From: a virus
Virus record (IMG/VR): IMGVR_UViG_3300025316_001004
Location: 1 to 24,206 of that record
DNA length: 24,206 nucleotides
Reading direction: 5' to 3' (one strand)
Part shown: in pieces, positions 3,707 to 20,787 of the stretch
Layout: the number at the start of each line of letters is the position of its first letter
Numbering within the stretch: position 1 is the stretch's first letter
Notes under the pieces: model-generated
The model's input: the letters and a program-made list of their open reading frames with translations, nothing else
What the model was told of the DNA's origin: nothing
The model's database searches: none
Translations under genes and position numbers: made by a program

Positions 3707-4492
3707 ATGAGCATGCTCGCGCGCATTCAGCGCGGAAAGACCCCAATGCCGCCCCGCGTGCTGGTCTACGGCACCGAGGGGATCGGCAAGTCGACCTTCG
3801 CTTCGGAAGCACCCAAACCGATCTTCATCCAGACCGAAGACGGCCTTGATGAGATCCCCTGCGACAAGTTCCCCTTGGCGGGCAGTTACGAGGACGTGGC
3901 CGGCGCCCTGGCCGAACTCCGCACCGAAAAGCACGACTACGAGTCGGTCGTCATCGATTCGCTGGACTGGCTCGAGCGGCTGATCTGGGACCGGGTGTGC
4001 ATCGATTCGGGCGTCAAGAATATTGAAAAGGCCGATGGGGGATATGCCCGCGGCTATTCACATGCCGTCGATTATTGGCGCGAGGTTGTGAACCAGCTCA
4101 ACATTCTGCGCAGCAGCCGCGGCATGGTCGTGCTCTTGATCGCGCACACGAAGGTCGAGAAGTTCGAGGATCCCGAATCCTCGCCCTACGATCGCTACAG
4201 CCCGCGGCTACATAAGCACGCTGCGGCGCTTCTGACCGAGTGGAGCGACGCCGTGCTCTTCGCCACGCGGAAGATCCGCACCCAGAGCGAAGATGCCGGA
4301 TTCAACCGTAAGCGGACCATCGCGCACCCCGTCGGCAAGGACGGCGGCGAGCGGATCCTCCGCACCGTCGGCGGGCCCTCGTGCATCGCCAAGAACCGTT
4401 ACGGGCTCGTCGATGACCTGCCGCTGTCGTGGGCAGGGTTCATGGCGGCCCTTTTCAACCAGCAACCGCAAGGAGAAACCCAACATGGCTGA
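3707..4492 (+). CDS. Phage RecA-fold ATPase (Sak4-like, AAA_24 type)
   Basis: The product is 261 aa. The Walker A loop is GTEGIGKST (residues 22-30), Walker B is ESVVIDSLDWL (79-89, Asp84), and a following strand VVLLIAHTKV (141-150) is typical of RecA-like cores. This family (phage nucleotide-binding protein, AAA_24/Sak4) acts in single-strand annealing and recombination-dependent replication, usually next to a single-strand binding protein. Here the next gene is a DUF669 protein, as expected. The ATG at 3707 has AGGAG (3694-3698) at 8 nt. The frame stays open upstream to 3578, but that part lacks a ribosome site and reads like non-coding sequence. Its last 8 nt overlap the DUF669 gene. The assignment to the RecA-fold phage ATPases is firm; the Sak4 subfamily is likely. 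Confidence 0.88.
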   Translation: MSMLARIQRGKTPMPPRVLVYGTEGIGKSTFASEAPKPIFIQTEDGLDEIPCDKFPLAGSYEDVAGALAELRTEKHDYESVVIDSLDWLERLIWDRVCIDSGVKNIEKADGGYARGYSHAVDYWREVVNQLNILRSSRGMVVLLIAHTKVEKFEDPESSPYDRYSPRLHKHAAALLTEWSDAVLFATRKIRTQSEDAGFNRKRTIAHPVGKDGGERILRTVGGPSCIAKNRYGLVDDLPLSWAGFMAALFNQQPQGETQHG

Positions 4493-14435: not shown

Positions 14436-14723
14436 GTGGAAGCCCCTATCTTCGCACCTTACATCCAGTTGGGATTCGCCGGCTTTGCGTTCCTGCTGGT
14501 TTTCGTAATCGTTTGGCTGATCCGCCGGCTGCTGGCGATCCTGGACAAGACCAACCAGATCATCGCCGGCAATACCGAGGCGATCAACCGAGTTCATGAC
14601 GCCAGCGAAGACCTGAAGGTCCTGATGGCGGACATCCGGGACCAATTGTTTCAGCGACCGTGTCTTATGCAGGACGAACACCATGTCGGGAAGACCCATG
14701 AAAATCGAACAGTGGAAACTTAG
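14436..14723 (+). CDS. Small membrane protein with coiled-coil tail (95 aa)
   Basis: A strong hydrophobic span at residues ~11-30 (LGFAGFAFLLVFVIVWLIRR) is followed by a helix with heptad-like spacing (LLAILDKTNQIIAGNTEAIN, then VLMADIRDQLF). It starts at GTG 14436 with AAGGAG (14421-14426) at 9 nt. An out-of-frame ATG at 14429 leads to a frame without protein-like composition. The last 41 nt overlap the methyltransferase gene. The layout would suit a spanin- or holin-like partner, but this is inference. Confidence 0.65.
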   Translation: MEAPIFAPYIQLGFAGFAFLLVFVIVWLIRRLLAILDKTNQIIAGNTEAINRVHDASEDLKVLMADIRDQLFQRPCLMQDEHHVGKTHENRTVET

Positions 14724-16023
14724 TGACATCAAGCCCTACCCGGGCAACCCTCGTCAGAACGACGCCGCGGTCGATGCCGTGGCGGCGTCGATCAAGGAGT
14801 TCGGGTTTCGGCAGCCGATCGTCGTCGACACCGAGGGCGTGATCATCTGCGGTCACACCCGCTACAAGGCCGCGCAGAAGCTCGGGCTGGAAACGGTGCC
14901 GGTCCATGTGGCCAAGGATCTCTCGCCGGCGCAGATCAAGGCCTACCGTATCGCCGACAACAAAACGTCCGACCTGGCAACCTGGGACTTCGAGCTGCTG
15001 CCGATCGAGTTGACAGCGCTGCAGGGCATGGATTTTGACATCGGGCTCTTGGGCTTTTCCCAGGACGAGATGGCCAAGATATTCGACCCGGGCGTACAGG
15101 AAGGACTGACCGATCCGGACGAGGTGCCCGAGCCGCCCGACGAGGCGATCACCAAGCCGGGCGACCTGTGGATCCTCGGTGATCATCGTCTGCTCTGCGG
15201 CGACAGCAGCAAGCCCGAGGATGTCGATCGACTGCTGGATGGCGCCTCGATCCATTTGGTGAACACCGATCCGCCGTACAACGTGAAGGTCGAGCCGCGG
15301 AGCAACAACGCCATCGCCGCCGGCAACAGTTCGTTCCAGAACTACCACCACCAGCAACTCGACCTGGCCCGACACCCGGAAAAGGCAAAGCCAACCCATC
15401 GCAAGATGCGGGCGAAGGACCGGCCCCTGGCCAACGACTTCATGACGGATGCCGATTTCGACAAGATGCTCGCAGCCTGGTTTGGCAATATGGCGCGCGT
15501 TCTGGAGCCCGGTCGTGGCTTCTATATTTGGGGTGGATACGCCAACTGTGCCAATTATCCACCTGTCTTGAAGGCCATGAAGCTTTACTTTTCGCAGGCC
15601 ATTATCTGGGTCAAAGAACACCCGGTGCTGACCCGCAAGGACTTCATGGGCAACCACGAGTGGTGCTTCTACGGCTGGAAGGAAGGCGCCGCGCACGTCT
15701 ACCTCGGCCCGAACAATGCTGTGGACGTGTGGAGCATCAAGAAGATCAACCCCAACAAGATGGTTCACCTCACTGAGAAACCGGCCGAGTTGGCCGTGCG
15801 GGCCATGCAATACTCGTCGCGCACCGGCGAGAACGTGCTGGACCTCTTCGGCGGCAGCGGCAGCACGCTGATCGCCGCCGAGCAGACTGGACGCAAGGCG
15901 TTCCTCATGGAACTGGACGCCCCTTATTGCGATGTGATCTGCGAAAGATACGCCCGCTTCTCCGGCAAAAGTCCGGTCCGAGAAAGTGATGGAGTGCTAT
16001 GGTCGCAAATACACAAGACTTGA
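14683..16023 (+). CDS. ParB-domain / class beta DNA methyltransferase fusion
   Basis: The product is 446 aa. A ParB/Srx-like domain (residues 6-105) carries ICGHTRYKAAQKLGL (55-69) and AYRIADNKT (87-95). The methyltransferase follows, with motif IV DPPYN (196-200), motif X-like HLTEKP (362-367) and the AdoMet loop DLFGGSGSTL (387-396). The order IV, recognition region, X, I is that of class beta amino-methyltransferases. Such enzymes methylate adenine N6 or cytosine N4; DPPY favours adenine. Phages use them to mask sites or regulate. No cognate restriction gene is next to it. Two starts are possible: ATG 14683 (AGGA at 14671-14674, 8 nt) and ATG 14698; I chose the first. Confidence 0.92.
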   Translation: MSGRPMKIEQWKLSDIKPYPGNPRQNDAAVDAVAASIKEFGFRQPIVVDTEGVIICGHTRYKAAQKLGLETVPVHVAKDLSPAQIKAYRIADNKTSDLATWDFELLPIELTALQGMDFDIGLLGFSQDEMAKIFDPGVQEGLTDPDEVPEPPDEAITKPGDLWILGDHRLLCGDSSKPEDVDRLLDGASIHLVNTDPPYNVKVEPRSNNAIAAGNSSFQNYHHQQLDLARHPEKAKPTHRKMRAKDRPLANDFMTDADFDKMLAAWFGNMARVLEPGRGFYIWGGYANCANYPPVLKAMKLYFSQAIIWVKEHPVLTRKDFMGNHEWCFYGWKEGAAHVYLGPNNAVDVWSIKKINPNKMVHLTEKPAELAVRAMQYSSRTGENVLDLFGGSGSTLIAAEQTGRKAFLMELDAPYCDVICERYARFSGKSPVRESDGVLWSQIHKT

Positions 16024-16971: not shown

Positions 16972-17211
16972 CTACGGATCGATCGGATCGTTTCTGTGTT
17001 CAGACGCTGGCCGCTCGTCGGCTGGCGTGTTCTGCCGAGGTCTTCCCGGGCGACGCGGCGTGGCTGCCAGCCGCTCGACTTCGCTTTCGGCGATGCCATA
17101 GGTGCTCCCGACCTTGATCGTCGCGATCCGGCCCAGCTTGCACAACAGTCGAATTCGGCTGGGGTCCACTTGCAATACGCTGGCGGCCTGCGTGGTCGTA
17201 AGAAATCGCAT
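16972..17211 (-). CDS. Excisionase-like / MerR-type HTH protein (79 aa)
   Basis: Residues 1-50 (FLTTTQAASVLQVDPSRIRL, then KLGRIATIKVGSTYGIAESEVERL) form a winged helix of the HTH_17 excisionase type. A basic and then acidic disordered tail (51-79) follows. Such proteins act as phage excisionases or small repressors. The ribosome site GGGAGGTGA (17223-17215 on the minus strand) partly overlaps the end of the amidotransferase gene, which lies 3 nt upstream. It is therefore the last gene of that operon and a candidate regulator of it. Confidence 0.82.
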   Translation of the reverse strand: MRFLTTTQAASVLQVDPSRIRLLCKLGRIATIKVGSTYGIAESEVERLAATPRRPGRPRQNTPADERPASEHRNDPIDP

Positions 17212-17214
17212 CGC

Positions 17215-17889
17215 TCACCTCCCGATCGAATAGGCTTCGTGCTGAAGATCGCTGCCCGTGTAGGTCAAGACGCCGGCGTAGCGCTCGTGGATGGTCACCG
17301 CCGCACCCGGCAGTTCGCGCGGCAGACTGCCGAAGTAGAACCCGCTGGTTGTCTCGCCGAAACAGAGCGGGTTGCCGCTTCGCACCACGAGCAACCGTGT
17401 GGGATTCCGCCACAACCCGAGCATCGCCAGATTGCCGACGGCCACCTCGGCGGCCCGGGCGGCACGCAGCCCCAGGGCGCCGGGGAAGCGGGCCATCAAG
17501 AGTCCCAGCACCTCGCTGTCGCACTCCGTGGTCATCGAGAGGCCGTAGCGACGGACAAGGCGGTCGTGGTTCTGCACGACGCCGTTGTGGACGAACCAGC
17601 CTCGGCCAGCCGGATGCGGATGGTTGTTACGATTTTCCTCGGGCGCGCCGTGCGTCGCCCAACGGCAATGGCCGATTACGGCCGTTGCGCCGCGGCATCG
17701 GTCGAGGTCGCCCAGGTTGGCCGTGGCTGGCCCGGGGCGTTTGAAGGTACGCAGGATGCCCTTGGTATCGAGCCACGCCAGTCCGAACGCGTGGTGGCCG
17801 CGGGTTTGCGTTTCCGCGGCGATCCGCCGCAGGCGGGCCAGGTCGGGGCCGCTCCCGTCTTTGGTAATGAACCCGAAGATTCCGCACAT
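17215..17889 (-). CDS. Class II (Ntn) glutamine amidotransferase domain protein
   Basis: The product is 224 aa and consists of the glutaminase domain alone. Cys2 (MCGIFGF) is the N-terminal nucleophile after Met removal. The other family landmarks are all present: RGHHAFGLAW (30-39), GHCRWATHG (73-81), NHPHP (89-93), VHNGVVQN (100-107) and ECDSEVL (122-128). It should release ammonia from glutamine, but it has no synthase domain of the GlmS, PurF or AsnB kind, so it needs a partner. The gene directly upstream encodes an amidoligase. The ATG at 17889 has AAGGAAG at 8 nt. The leader just before it (AACACCAAAACCAAAGGAA) resembles the one before 20337. Confidence 0.92.
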   Translation of the reverse strand: MCGIFGFITKDGSGPDLARLRRIAAETQTRGHHAFGLAWLDTKGILRTFKRPGPATANLGDLDRCRGATAVIGHCRWATHGAPEENRNNHPHPAGRGWFVHNGVVQNHDRLVRRYGLSMTTECDSEVLGLLMARFPGALGLRAARAAEVAVGNLAMLGLWRNPTRLLVVRSGNPLCFGETTSGFYFGSLPRELPGAAVTIHERYAGVLTYTGSDLQHEAYSIGR

Positions 17890-17997: not shown

Positions 17998-18849
17998 TCA
18001 GGCCTGCTCGTCGTACTTCTTGGCCAGGCGGCGGAACTCGGCCTTGATCTCTTCCTGCGGGATCGCGTCCGAAACCCATCCGAACTGTTTGCCGTTGTGA
18101 ATCCGGGCGTAGCCCGCGCCCCAGGCCAGGTATCCGATCAGGCGTTCGGCTTCGCTCTGGCCTTCGCCGGCCTTCTTCCAACCGCCGGTCAAGGGCTTCG
18201 GGCTCCAGGCGGGTTGGCGCTTCCCGTTGATCGCCCGCTCGACCAGCCCCAGGCAAACCTGGACCCATCCGACCACCTTCAGGGCGCTGGTGGTTCCCGA
18301 GAAGACCCGGAACTCGACCGTGTCTTTGGTTCCGCGGGCCAGGTTGGTGAGGTTCAAGGCGTGGTAGCGAGCGGTCTCGATCTTGTCCTTGGCGTCTTTG
18401 TTGTTCCCGTACTTGCGAACCCCGCCGCAGTACGTTCCGCGCTCGCGGGCCTTGCTGCCCGTGATCGCGTAGAGGCCCTTCTCGACGTAGGCGACGATCG
18501 TGATCAACCGGGCGAGGGCCTCGCTGGGCAGCGTGCGCTTCCAGCCGACGTGAACGTGAACGGCCGTCGAGGCGTTCACTCGGTGGCCTTTGGCCTCGAG
18601 CGTTCGCAAGACCAGGGCGACCTGGGCCAGCCCCTCGGCCCCCTTCAGGATCGGGCTTACGATCTCGCACTTGTGGCCGCCCCGGCTGTTGTCAATCGAG
18701 CCGTCCGCCTCGGCGGTCCAGCCTTGGGGCAGGTACGGCACCTGGATTCCGCGCTTGTAGGGTCCGATCCGCAGGCCGTCGTTCCGCAGGGCGGAATCCG
18801 GGGCGATCGTCTCAATCTCAACTCCGAAGGTCAGGTCGTTTGCGTTCAT
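17998..18849 (-). CDS. Amidoligase family enzyme (PF12224 type)
   Basis: The product is 283 aa. It carries the marks of amidoligases related to glutamate-cysteine ligase and glutamine synthetase: FGVEIET (8-14), EADGSID (47-53), CEIVSPIL (61-68), AVHVHVG (96-102), YHALNL (162-167) and VEFRVFSGT (178-186). The acidic and His residues would bind ATP-Mg and the carboxylate substrate. The family is thought to form an amide bond between an acid and an amine. Members are known to neighbour glutamine amidotransferase genes, as here. The start is ATG 18849 behind GAGGA; the frame is open 17 codons further up inside the leader. The substrate, whether a protein, peptidoglycan or small molecule, cannot be told from sequence. 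Confidence 0.9.
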   Translation of the reverse strand: MNANDLTFGVEIETIAPDSALRNDGLRIGPYKRGIQVPYLPQGWTAEADGSIDNSRGGHKCEIVSPILKGAEGLAQVALVLRTLEAKGHRVNASTAVHVHVGWKRTLPSEALARLITIVAYVEKGLYAITGSKARERGTYCGGVRKYGNNKDAKDKIETARYHALNLTNLARGTKDTVEFRVFSGTTSALKVVGWVQVCLGLVERAINGKRQPAWSPKPLTGGWKKAGEGQSEAERLIGYLAWGAGYARIHNGKQFGWVSDAIPQEEIKAEFRRLAKKYDEQA

Positions 18850-18982
18850 CTTTCGTATCCTCGTTTTGGGTGGTGTAATGTACGTCTGAACATCACACAC
18901 AGTCGCTCAGAAGCGACGTTTTGTAAAGCGATTCTTCAAGGTCGTAAGTCCAAACACGGGCGAAGTTTAGGGCTCGTCTTTT
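18850..18982 (-). promoter_or_regulatory. Promoter/leader copy A, upstream of the amidoligase gene
   Basis: Read on the minus strand it holds AAAAGACGAGCCC (18982-18970), 13 nt, TGTTTGGACTTACGA (18956-18942), 10 nt, TCGCTT (18931-18926). Next come a hairpin GTCGCT/AGCGAC (18902-18917), ATGT-N8-ACAT (18893-18878) and the ribosome site. All except the hairpin recur at the same spacing in copy B (20338-20469). Exact spacing over three blocks points to a promoter, but no good TATAAT box is placed 17 nt after TTGGAC. An alternative sigma factor is therefore possible. Confidence 0.65.
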
Positions 18983-18993
18983 CATGCCAGAAA

Positions 18994-19096
18994 TGCCGAC
19001 TGAAACAGTCGGCAAGGATTCCCGAAAAAACGTCTAGGCCCAGCGTGGCCGAAGAGAACCCCGGGTGGCGGCCCGGGGTGAAAAGAGTCGGGAATC
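18994..19096 (-). terminator. Cluster of strong inverted repeats: terminator or structured RNA
   Basis: A perfect 9-bp stem with a 3-nt loop lies at 18994-19014 (TGCCGACTG/CAGTCGGCA). An 8-bp stem ACCCCGGG/CCCGGGGT lies at 19058-19079. It is enclosed by a 9-bp pair GATTCCCGA/TCGGGAATC (19017-19025/19088-19096). A 4-bp stem GGCC/GGCC is at 19037-19050. The region lies just after the HARE-HTH gene stop and before promoter copy A on the minus strand. A terminator for the first unit is the simple reading. The nested fold is larger than a terminator needs. Confidence 0.55.
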
Positions 19097-19113
19097 AGCC
19101 TTTTTGCCTTAGC

Positions 19114-19737
19114 TTACCGGTGGGCGAACCGGCCGCGTTCGGCCTTCTGGAACCGGGCGGTGGTGCCCTTGGTGGCGATCTCGCGAATGATCGCGCTGTA
19201 GAGCGTGGCGTGGGGCGTCTTGCCGCCGGGCGACTTCCAATAGCCCTTGGTCTCGGCCGCGGCGATCATCTCCTTGGCGTTCATCGGCGCGCCGTGCTCC
19301 TGGAGCACCTTGGCCGCGGCGTCCAGTCCGCTCATCCGCTTTTCCTTCGGCTCCTTGGGTGCCTTCGGCGCGCGGGTGCGATTGGGCTTGTCGGTCGCTT
19401 CGGCCGCCGCCGGATCGGTGGCCGCGGGTTCGGCGCTGACCGGCTCGGCACTGGGCACGTCTTCGACCGTGGGCGCCGACGTTGCCGCCGGTTGGGGCTC
19501 GGCCGCGGCCTGGGCCTTCTTATTGCCCCTGGCCTTCTTGGCGACGGTCGCGGCACCGTTGCCGTTAATGGCGCTCCGCAAGCGCTGGACCGACTGGATG
19601 CGGACCTTCTTGCCGGTCTCCAGATTCGTCGCGTCCCAACCGCCGTGGCGGTTCTCCGCATCGATCCGTACCTGGACGACCCGATTGGTCACCTTCGCGG
19701 TGTACAACTTGCCAATCTCGACTTCGTTCTTCTTCAT
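19114..19737 (-). CDS. HARE-HTH domain protein (207 aa)
   Basis: The N-terminal ~55 residues ([20 protein letters not shown], then [14 protein letters not shown]) form a small beta domain. A long Ala/Pro/Glu/Lys linker (~60-133) follows. The C-terminal domain (134-207: [20 protein letters not shown], then [13 protein letters not shown] and AERGRFAHR) matches the HARE-type winged helix. HARE domains have been proposed to recognise modified DNA or couple to DNA-modifying enzymes. A ParB-methyltransferase is encoded in the same phage. AAGGAGAAG precedes the ATG at 19737. It is the last gene of the unit starting at 20443. The domain call is good; the role is inferred. Confidence 0.82.
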
Positions 19738-19785
19738 CGCACTTCTCCTTGGAAAAAGGGGGAACTGAAAAAAGGGAAACAGGGG

Positions 19786-19968
19786 CTATCGCCGAGAACT
19801 CTCGACGATCGTGATTTGGAATTCCTGGCCGTTGGGAAACGCGACGACCAGACCGCGGTTGTTCGTCATCACGCCCGCGTCGCGGAAGGTGGTGACCTCG
19901 GCCCAGCGCTCCAGGAGCGTGGCCAACTTCGTCTCCAGTCGCTTCTCGGTAATGCGTCGTTTCTGCAT
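19786..19968 (-). CDS. Small hypothetical protein (60 aa)
   Basis: A basic helix (MQKRRITEKRLETKLATLLE) is followed by a short beta-rich part (GLVVAFPNGQEFQITIVES). AGGAG lies 8 nt before the ATG at 19968. It sits between two genes of the same unit with gaps of 21 and 48 nt. I recognise no family; the size and split pattern suggest a small DNA-binding or inhibitor protein. Confidence 0.6.
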   Translation of the reverse strand: MQKRRITEKRLETKLATLLERWAEVTTFRDAGVMTNNRGLVVAFPNGQEFQITIVESSRR

Positions 19969-19989
19969 GGTCGTGCTCCTTGTCGTGCG

Positions 19990-20337
19990 TTAGGCGTGGT
20001 AAACCAGATCCGCCAGGCCGGCGGCCAGGAAATCGACCACCGCCTGCGTCTTGGGCGAAGCGGCGGGGATGTCCATCCCGCGGTCGAAGTTGAATACCGT
20101 CTCTTTGTTGCTGGTCTTGGCGATCCAGAGCTTCGAGATGCGGCTTGTGCCCAGTTCCCAATCCGGGCAATCGGCGTGCTCGGGAAAGACCAGGGCATCG
20201 AAGCGGTATCCGGCGATCGTCCCGCAGACCCAAGTCCCGCCGCCGGAAGCCCGGCGCGTGGTCTTGGTGATCTGGAGGTCGTCGCCCAGTTCGGTCTTGG
20301 CGTTGTTCGTGCGGTTCGTTTTGCGGTTGGTGGTCAT
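19990..20337 (-). CDS. Hypothetical protein (115 aa), first gene of the second minus-strand unit
   Basis: After a basic N-terminus (MTTNRKTNRTNNAK) the protein is a compact mixed fold (GGGTWVCGTIAGYRFDALVF, then CPDWELGTSRISKLWI and NKETVFNFDRGMD) ending in a helix (AVVDFLAAGLADLVYHA). No known motif is seen. I chose the ATG at 20337 with AAAGGAAA upstream. The frame is open to 20493, but that part is the duplicated leader, not coding. The protein is transcribed from promoter copy B. Confidence 0.65.
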   Translation of the reverse strand: MTTNRKTNRTNNAKTELGDDLQITKTTRRASGGGTWVCGTIAGYRFDALVFPEHADCPDWELGTSRISKLWIAKTSNKETVFNFDRGMDIPAASPKTQAVVDFLAAGLADLVYHA

Positions 20338-20469
20338 CTTGGTTTCCTTTGCGTTTGGTGTTGCATGTTCGTTCGGACATACACACATGAGCCATGTTTT
20401 CGCCCAAAGCTCAAGCGAATTGCCGGTTTCGTAAGTCCAAACAGTGTTGTGGCTTCGGGCTCGTCTTTT
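20338..20469 (-). promoter_or_regulatory. Promoter/leader copy B, upstream of the second minus-strand unit
   Basis: On the minus strand it holds AAAAGACGAGCCC (20469-20457), 13 nt, TGTTTGGACTTACGA (20443-20429), 10 nt, TCGCTT (20418-20413), then ATGT-N8-ACAT (20380-20365) and an A-rich ribosome site before ATG 20337. Distances to the start codon match copy A within 1 nt. A weaker stem TGAGC/GCTCA lies where copy A has its hairpin. The segments between the blocks have diverged, so the blocks are under selection or were copied long ago. Confidence 0.65.
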
Positions 20470-20559
20470 TTGGCAGTTCCCCGAGGATTTCATGAGCCGC
20501 GGAATTTCAGGCGAAACATGGGCAGTTTTTCATACGTTTTCGCCGGAGCGTAGCACGCA

Positions 20560-20787
20560 ATGAGCACCAACAACGAACCAGAACGACCAAGCGGCGCCCT
20601 GAATCCCCAAGCCTTGCAATTGGCGGACATGGCCCGCGTTCTCACGGCCTCCGGCCCGCGGCCGGTCACCGTGGAAATGCTCGAGGCGGATATCGATGAC
20701 GGCGCGCCAACCAACCGCGACGGCACCATGAATCTCGTCGAATACGCCCGCTGGCTGATCAGGGAGACCTTGCATGGCGGCGATTGA
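20560..20787 (+). CDS. Small protein (75 aa), small-terminase candidate
   Basis: Residues ~22-68 (ADMARVLTASG, then VTVEMLEADI and MNLVEYARWLIRE) share spacing and pattern with residues 12-60 of the large terminase encoded next. I read this as one domain present twice, stand-alone and fused. Its position just before the large subunit is that of a small terminase (DNA-recognition) gene. GGAG lies about 11 nt before ATG 20560. It overlaps the terminase gene by 14 nt. The protein is much shorter than typical TerS. Confidence 0.6.
   Translation: MSTNNEPERPSGALNPQALQLADMARVLTASGPRPVTVEMLEADIDDGAPTNRDGTMNLVEYARWLIRETLHGGD

Follow-up and report, generated by a model that had tools for sequence, protein, structure and literature searches.

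Paired leaders of a probable Planctomycetota phage carry predicted host LexA boxes

A leader repeated nearly unchanged in front of two minus-strand gene units of this virus contains a LexA-like site, and the phage therefore probably turns on both gene groups upon host DNA damage. In our reading of the sequence, both leaders are quite likely promoters repressed by the LexA protein of the host. Four direct observations bear on this: the repeat itself, an SOS motif in the host group, the rank of the two phage dyads against that motif, and their conservation in relatives. Together they suggest that phages of the poorly studied Planctomycetota listen to host DNA damage.

The window, i.e. the whole stretch of DNA that was analysed, is the complete virus record of 24,206 bases. 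The earlier note on this DNA had described two near-duplicate leaders, and both of their long blocks were recovered where it had placed them, on the minus strand and with identical spacings of 13 and 10 nt. Searched for across the window, the 41-base two-block pattern matches exactly twice, as against never in 100 shuffles, so the two-block repeat is not attributable to chance; TGTTTGGACTTACGA by itself, with up to three mismatches, would be matched 0.3 times per window by chance. The ATGT-N8-ACAT dyad is likewise present, at 18878-18893 and 20365-20380, and in copy 1 it is longer than had been noticed (GTGTGATGT-N8-ACATTACAC, 9-nt arms with one G/T mismatch). The intervening bases had been called diverged; the spacers do differ, but not all of them are random, as the 13-nt spacer of copy 2 agrees with that of the related phage L021 at 11 of 13 positions and with that of copy 1 at 5 of 13. 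TCGCTT, the third shared element, belongs to a -35-like element (CTTGA/CTTTACA). The leader repeat has three layers, a LexA-like dyad, a -35-like element and the arms of an upstream inverted repeat, and the conservation on which the earlier note had made its proposal depend was found, with blocks and dyad recurring in related phages. The features of the two leaders are as follows.

18970..18982, minus strand: leader 1, left arm of the upstream element (AAAAGACGAGCCC)
18942..18956, minus strand: leader 1, right arm of the upstream element (TGTTTGGACTTACGA)
18922..18931, minus strand: leader 1, TCGCTTTACA, with a putative -35-like TTTACA at 18922-18927; position conserved across lineages
18899..18904, minus strand: leader 1, possible weak -10, GACTGT, 17 nt after TTTACA
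18876..18895, minus strand: leader 1, predicted host LexA (SOS) box (TGATGTTCAGACGTACATTA); best site in the window
20457..20469, minus strand: leader 2, left arm of the upstream element (AAAAGACGAGCCC)
20429..20443, minus strand: leader 2, right arm of the upstream element (TGTTTGGACTTACGA)
20409..20418, minus strand: leader 2, TCGCTTGAGC, with a putative -35-like TTGAGC at 20409-20414
20365..20380, minus strand: leader 2, predicted host LexA (SOS) box (ATGTCCGAACGAACAT); ranked second among the 16-bp sites of the window by the combined matrix

Copy 1 lies before unit 1 and copy 2 before unit 2, both units being predicted operons, while the terminase side runs divergently with its start at 20560.

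17998..18849, minus strand: unit 1, gene 1, amidoligase (PF12224)
17215..17889, minus strand: unit 1, gene 2, class-II glutamine amidotransferase (PF13522)
16972..17211, minus strand: unit 1, gene 3, small HTH_17/excisionase-like protein
19990..20337, minus strand: unit 2, gene 1, DUF7678 protein (PF24726)
19786..19968, minus strand: unit 2, 60-aa ORF with no match in the family search
19114..19737, minus strand: unit 2, HARE-HTH protein (PF05066)
18994..19079, minus strand: two perfect hairpins, probable terminators, that separate the units

The DUF7678 ORF could be extended in frame through leader 2 to an ATG at 20493, but this stretch was not accepted as coding, because the DUF7678 ORF of the relative L004 (2034-2381) has no such extension. 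Elsewhere in the window, 14683-16023 on the plus strand encodes a single protein with ParB_N and N6/N4 DNA methylase domains.

In sequenced genomes, the relatives of the amidoligase with an identity of at least 70% all lie in Planctomycetota MAGs (Thermoguttaceae, Planctomycetaceae, Gemmataceae, Phycisphaerales). Many further relatives occur among viruses, and in the annotated phage collection every amidoligase match is below 60% identity. One relative, L053, lies on an 85-kb contig that has chromosomal genes, including one for seryl-tRNA synthetase, on one side, followed by a serine integrase and then phage genes (sigma-like, AAA_24, helicase, portal), a layout that identifies it as an integrated prophage.

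According to earlier work, planctomycete LexA fails to recognise the E. coli motif (PMC3108266), and no published planctomycete LexA motif was found in the mainly open-access literature searched. Upstream of lexA in host MAGs we met a 5-N4-5 dyad like that of the phage, and the motif was extended over Pirellulales sequences upstream of lexA (36 used), recA (30) and imuA (19) (L150-L226, L257-L276). These three genes carry a common motif, from which we derived the Pirellulales SOS box TAnTGTAC-N4-GTACAnTA; the imuA and recA consensus is TAnTGTACAnnTGTACAnTA. For cross-validation, matrices were trained on one gene and scored on another, with the 99th percentile of shuffles as cut-off. The lexA matrix recovered 19 of 19 imuA and 26 of 30 recA sites, the recA matrix 19 of 19 imuA and 30 of 36 lexA sites, and the imuA matrix 26 of 30 recA and 27 of 36 lexA sites. 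That matrices from one gene recover the sites of the others supports identification of the motif as the SOS box, and a testable consensus for Pirellulales is now available. Many Pirellulales lexA promoters also seem to carry a second, weaker TGTACA site upstream. The box was not found upstream of lexA in the two Phycisphaerales genomes L157 and L159, and the LexA motif therefore probably differs in that class. The host of prophage L053, itself a Phycisphaerales, has no such box before its own lexA, a point that speaks against control by host LexA. The host of the window itself is presumably a planctomycete with the LexA described here.

Both phage boxes match the host motif, box 2 more weakly. 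Every host matrix ranks box 1 first in the window, and the combined 16-bp core picks out exactly the two dyads of the earlier note as the best two matches in the 24-kb window (17.5 for box 1 and 11.9 for box 2, the next site scoring 8.7). Of 1000 shuffled windows, two had a best match of 17.5 or more and 14 had a second-best match of 11.9 or more. The standing of box 2 depends on matrix and width, and with some 20-bp single-gene matrices it ranks 12th or lower.

The sequence flanking the boxes has diverged strongly between groups of relatives. Among 13 representatives, which are not independent because their leaders are related, 11-12 have the highest-scoring match of their entire sequence no more than 70 bp upstream of the amidoligase start, and permuted matrices average 0.7-0.9 in the same test. 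A search for ATGTTCGNNCGAACAT with up to two mismatches found it in 9 of 20 whole phage records, the located matches all lying in these leaders, and the reversed control gave no match in the 20. Conserved as it is in those 11-12 representatives, the LexA-like box is nevertheless lost or halved in some other relatives: only half a box precedes the amidoligase gene in L021, L050 and L052, and none does in L008, L022 and L054.

Divergent leaders have little in common beyond a -35-like CTTGA/CTTTACA/CTTGCC, a TGT-containing element 17-18 nt further on, and the dyad. CTTGA/CTTTACA keeps its position in nearly all lineages, and in most the LexA-like box begins 33-34 nt downstream of it. The box also lies 38-55 nt before the start codon, close to the putative promoter. 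In several relatives, prophage L053 included, boxes stand before both the amidoligase unit and a second (DUF7678/HARE-HTH) unit, and for L004, L010 and L053 the two best matches of the locus are the two leaders. In L010 and L053, whose second unit again has a HARE-HTH protein, one leader of a genome is a close copy of the other, and both are unlike the leaders of other lineages; L023 and L051 keep the second-unit box and have only half a box in the amidoligase leader. The near-duplicate leader of the window is one instance of this recurring theme. As a separate observation, second-unit genes of L006 (2615), L052 (2688), L055 (1941) and L076 (3086) are again preceded by the promoter stretch CGCTTGA...CATGGCTCATGTGT, and some of them have half a box or none.

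The two long blocks, which lie upstream of the putative promoter, form the arms of an inverted repeat that is degenerate. GAGCCC-N13-TGTTTGGACTT is confined to one clade (L004, L021, L023, L050, L051) plus copy 2 of the window. The element is a perfect inverted repeat with 11-bp arms in L023, and in L052 (about 3871-3908) its 27-nt inside is flipped, with an identity of 17-21 of 27 positions when inverted and 11-16 when read directly. Its length and spacing are constant, the flip in L052 included. A strict hairpin role was rejected, since the arms pair at 11 of 11 positions in L023 but at 5 of 11 in both window copies. A repetitive element of the host was also ruled out: none of 10 host MAGs contains the exact inverted repeat, and the two-block pattern occurs in one of 197 Pirellulales genomes, in a sequence identical to the leader of L050, so that this single occurrence does not represent a host repeat. 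A viral scan for the two blocks gave nine matches, with true leaders only in the L004, L021 and L023 records; the others, which have no other leader elements, look like chance. The second-unit leaders of L004, L023 and L051 do not have the upstream element, and copy 2 was therefore probably gained; it was not recently derived from copy 1, because its spacer is nearest to that of L021. This inverted repeat forms a DNA element of its own, specific to the clade, and is most likely the site of a regulator protein.

Other readings of the leaders were weighed against control by host LexA. The dyads may be operators of a phage repressor that merely resemble a LexA box, which we regard as unlikely. 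The earlier note had proposed that the dyad binds a repressor such as the HTH protein at 16972; the repressor idea holds, but the choice of protein is not supported. Its gene lies inside unit 1, where autoregulation would be possible, and the half-boxes of some relatives suggest drift in specificity. A homologue occurs, however, in only 2 of the 20 related records, which may be incomplete, as against 9 of 20 for the dyad, so the regulator gene does not accompany the operator throughout and host LexA is the better candidate. The match to the host SOS box is, moreover, sequence-specific. No S24-type repressor was found in the 20 records, although their possible incompleteness means that this absence is no proof.

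The phage does encode a sigma-70 region 2 protein (PF04542; 2647-3231, plus strand), as the earlier note had recognised, and within one clade the blocks are highly conserved at fixed spacing. It is nonetheless very improbable that this protein reads the leaders with TGTTTGGACTTACGA as its recognition element. The suggestion that TTGGAC serves as a -35 box for a non-housekeeping sigma is not supported: TGTTTGGACTT is missing from most relatives that keep the promoter and the dyad, the element with a stable position across nearly all lineages is instead the one that follows it downstream (CTTGA/CTTTACA), and no -10-like element lies at a suitable distance after the block. Prophage L053 likewise encodes a sigma-like protein (L290 8159-8767), yet the block is in neither of its two leaders. 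Just as little weight falls on the leader acting as RNA, whose 5' untranslated region would fold the long dyad into a hairpin. In copy 1, GUGUGAUGU and ACAUUACAC can pair, a G-U pair included, and relatives show paired changes (GTGTAATGT/ACATTACAC versus GTGTGATGT/ACATCACAC), but a DNA palindrome yields identical paired changes, folding is unexceptional (z of -1.8 and -0.3), and the sequence itself, beyond its pairing, is common to host SOS promoters. A known RNA leader family was rejected, as no Rfam covariance model matched at the gathering threshold.

Repression by host LexA would work as follows. Each leader would hold a -35-like element (CTTGA/CTTTACA) with the LexA box 33-34 nt after its start, a position that should place LexA over the predicted transcription start. 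In an undamaged host, LexA bound to the boxes would keep both units low; upon DNA damage, RecA-driven cleavage of LexA would free both promoters, and the host SOS circuit would jointly switch on the amidoligase/amidotransferase unit and the HARE-HTH unit. The comparisons above support a shared regulatory region for both units, with the dyad as a probable repressor-type operator. Both accessory-type units are predicted to be induced by DNA damage, one of them with an amidoligase/amidotransferase pair otherwise discussed as metabolic genes. More tentatively, and with rather less than even confidence, a two-unit SOS regulon with matched promoters may be conserved in temperate Planctomycetota phages, one clade having the flippable inverted repeat as a second input.

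Small phage units under host LexA outside the main lysogeny switch are known from coliphages 186 (tum) and N15 (antC), where the genes under LexA control encode antirepressors; in the two units of this phage an antirepressor was not recognised. In 2016, Erill and co-workers reportedly described the Verrucomicrobia LexA box TGTTC-N4-GAACA, which would have the identical 5-N4-5 geometry and nearly the same half-sites. The Pirellulales box differs in being mostly TGTAC-N4-GTAYA with a further TA at each end. The planctomycete phage ZRK32 carries the identical pair of annotated enzyme types, amidoligase and glutamine amidotransferase (PMC10945688). That phage is reported to be chronic, with nitrate or ammonium as inducers (PMC10945688), and the amidoligases of annotated phages are all below 60% identity to the one studied here. 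In the temperate phage GIL01, promoter P1 is repressed by LexA of the host Bacillus thuringiensis, with binding shown and dinBox1 centred at +17; the motif is the Gram-positive one, a phage helper, gp7, takes part, and early replication genes are controlled (PMC4551915). The present phage has a Pirellulales motif, accessory-type genes and predicted LexA binding. What the two would have in common is a phage promoter with host LexA boxes near the transcription start, which couples phage genes to the SOS response.
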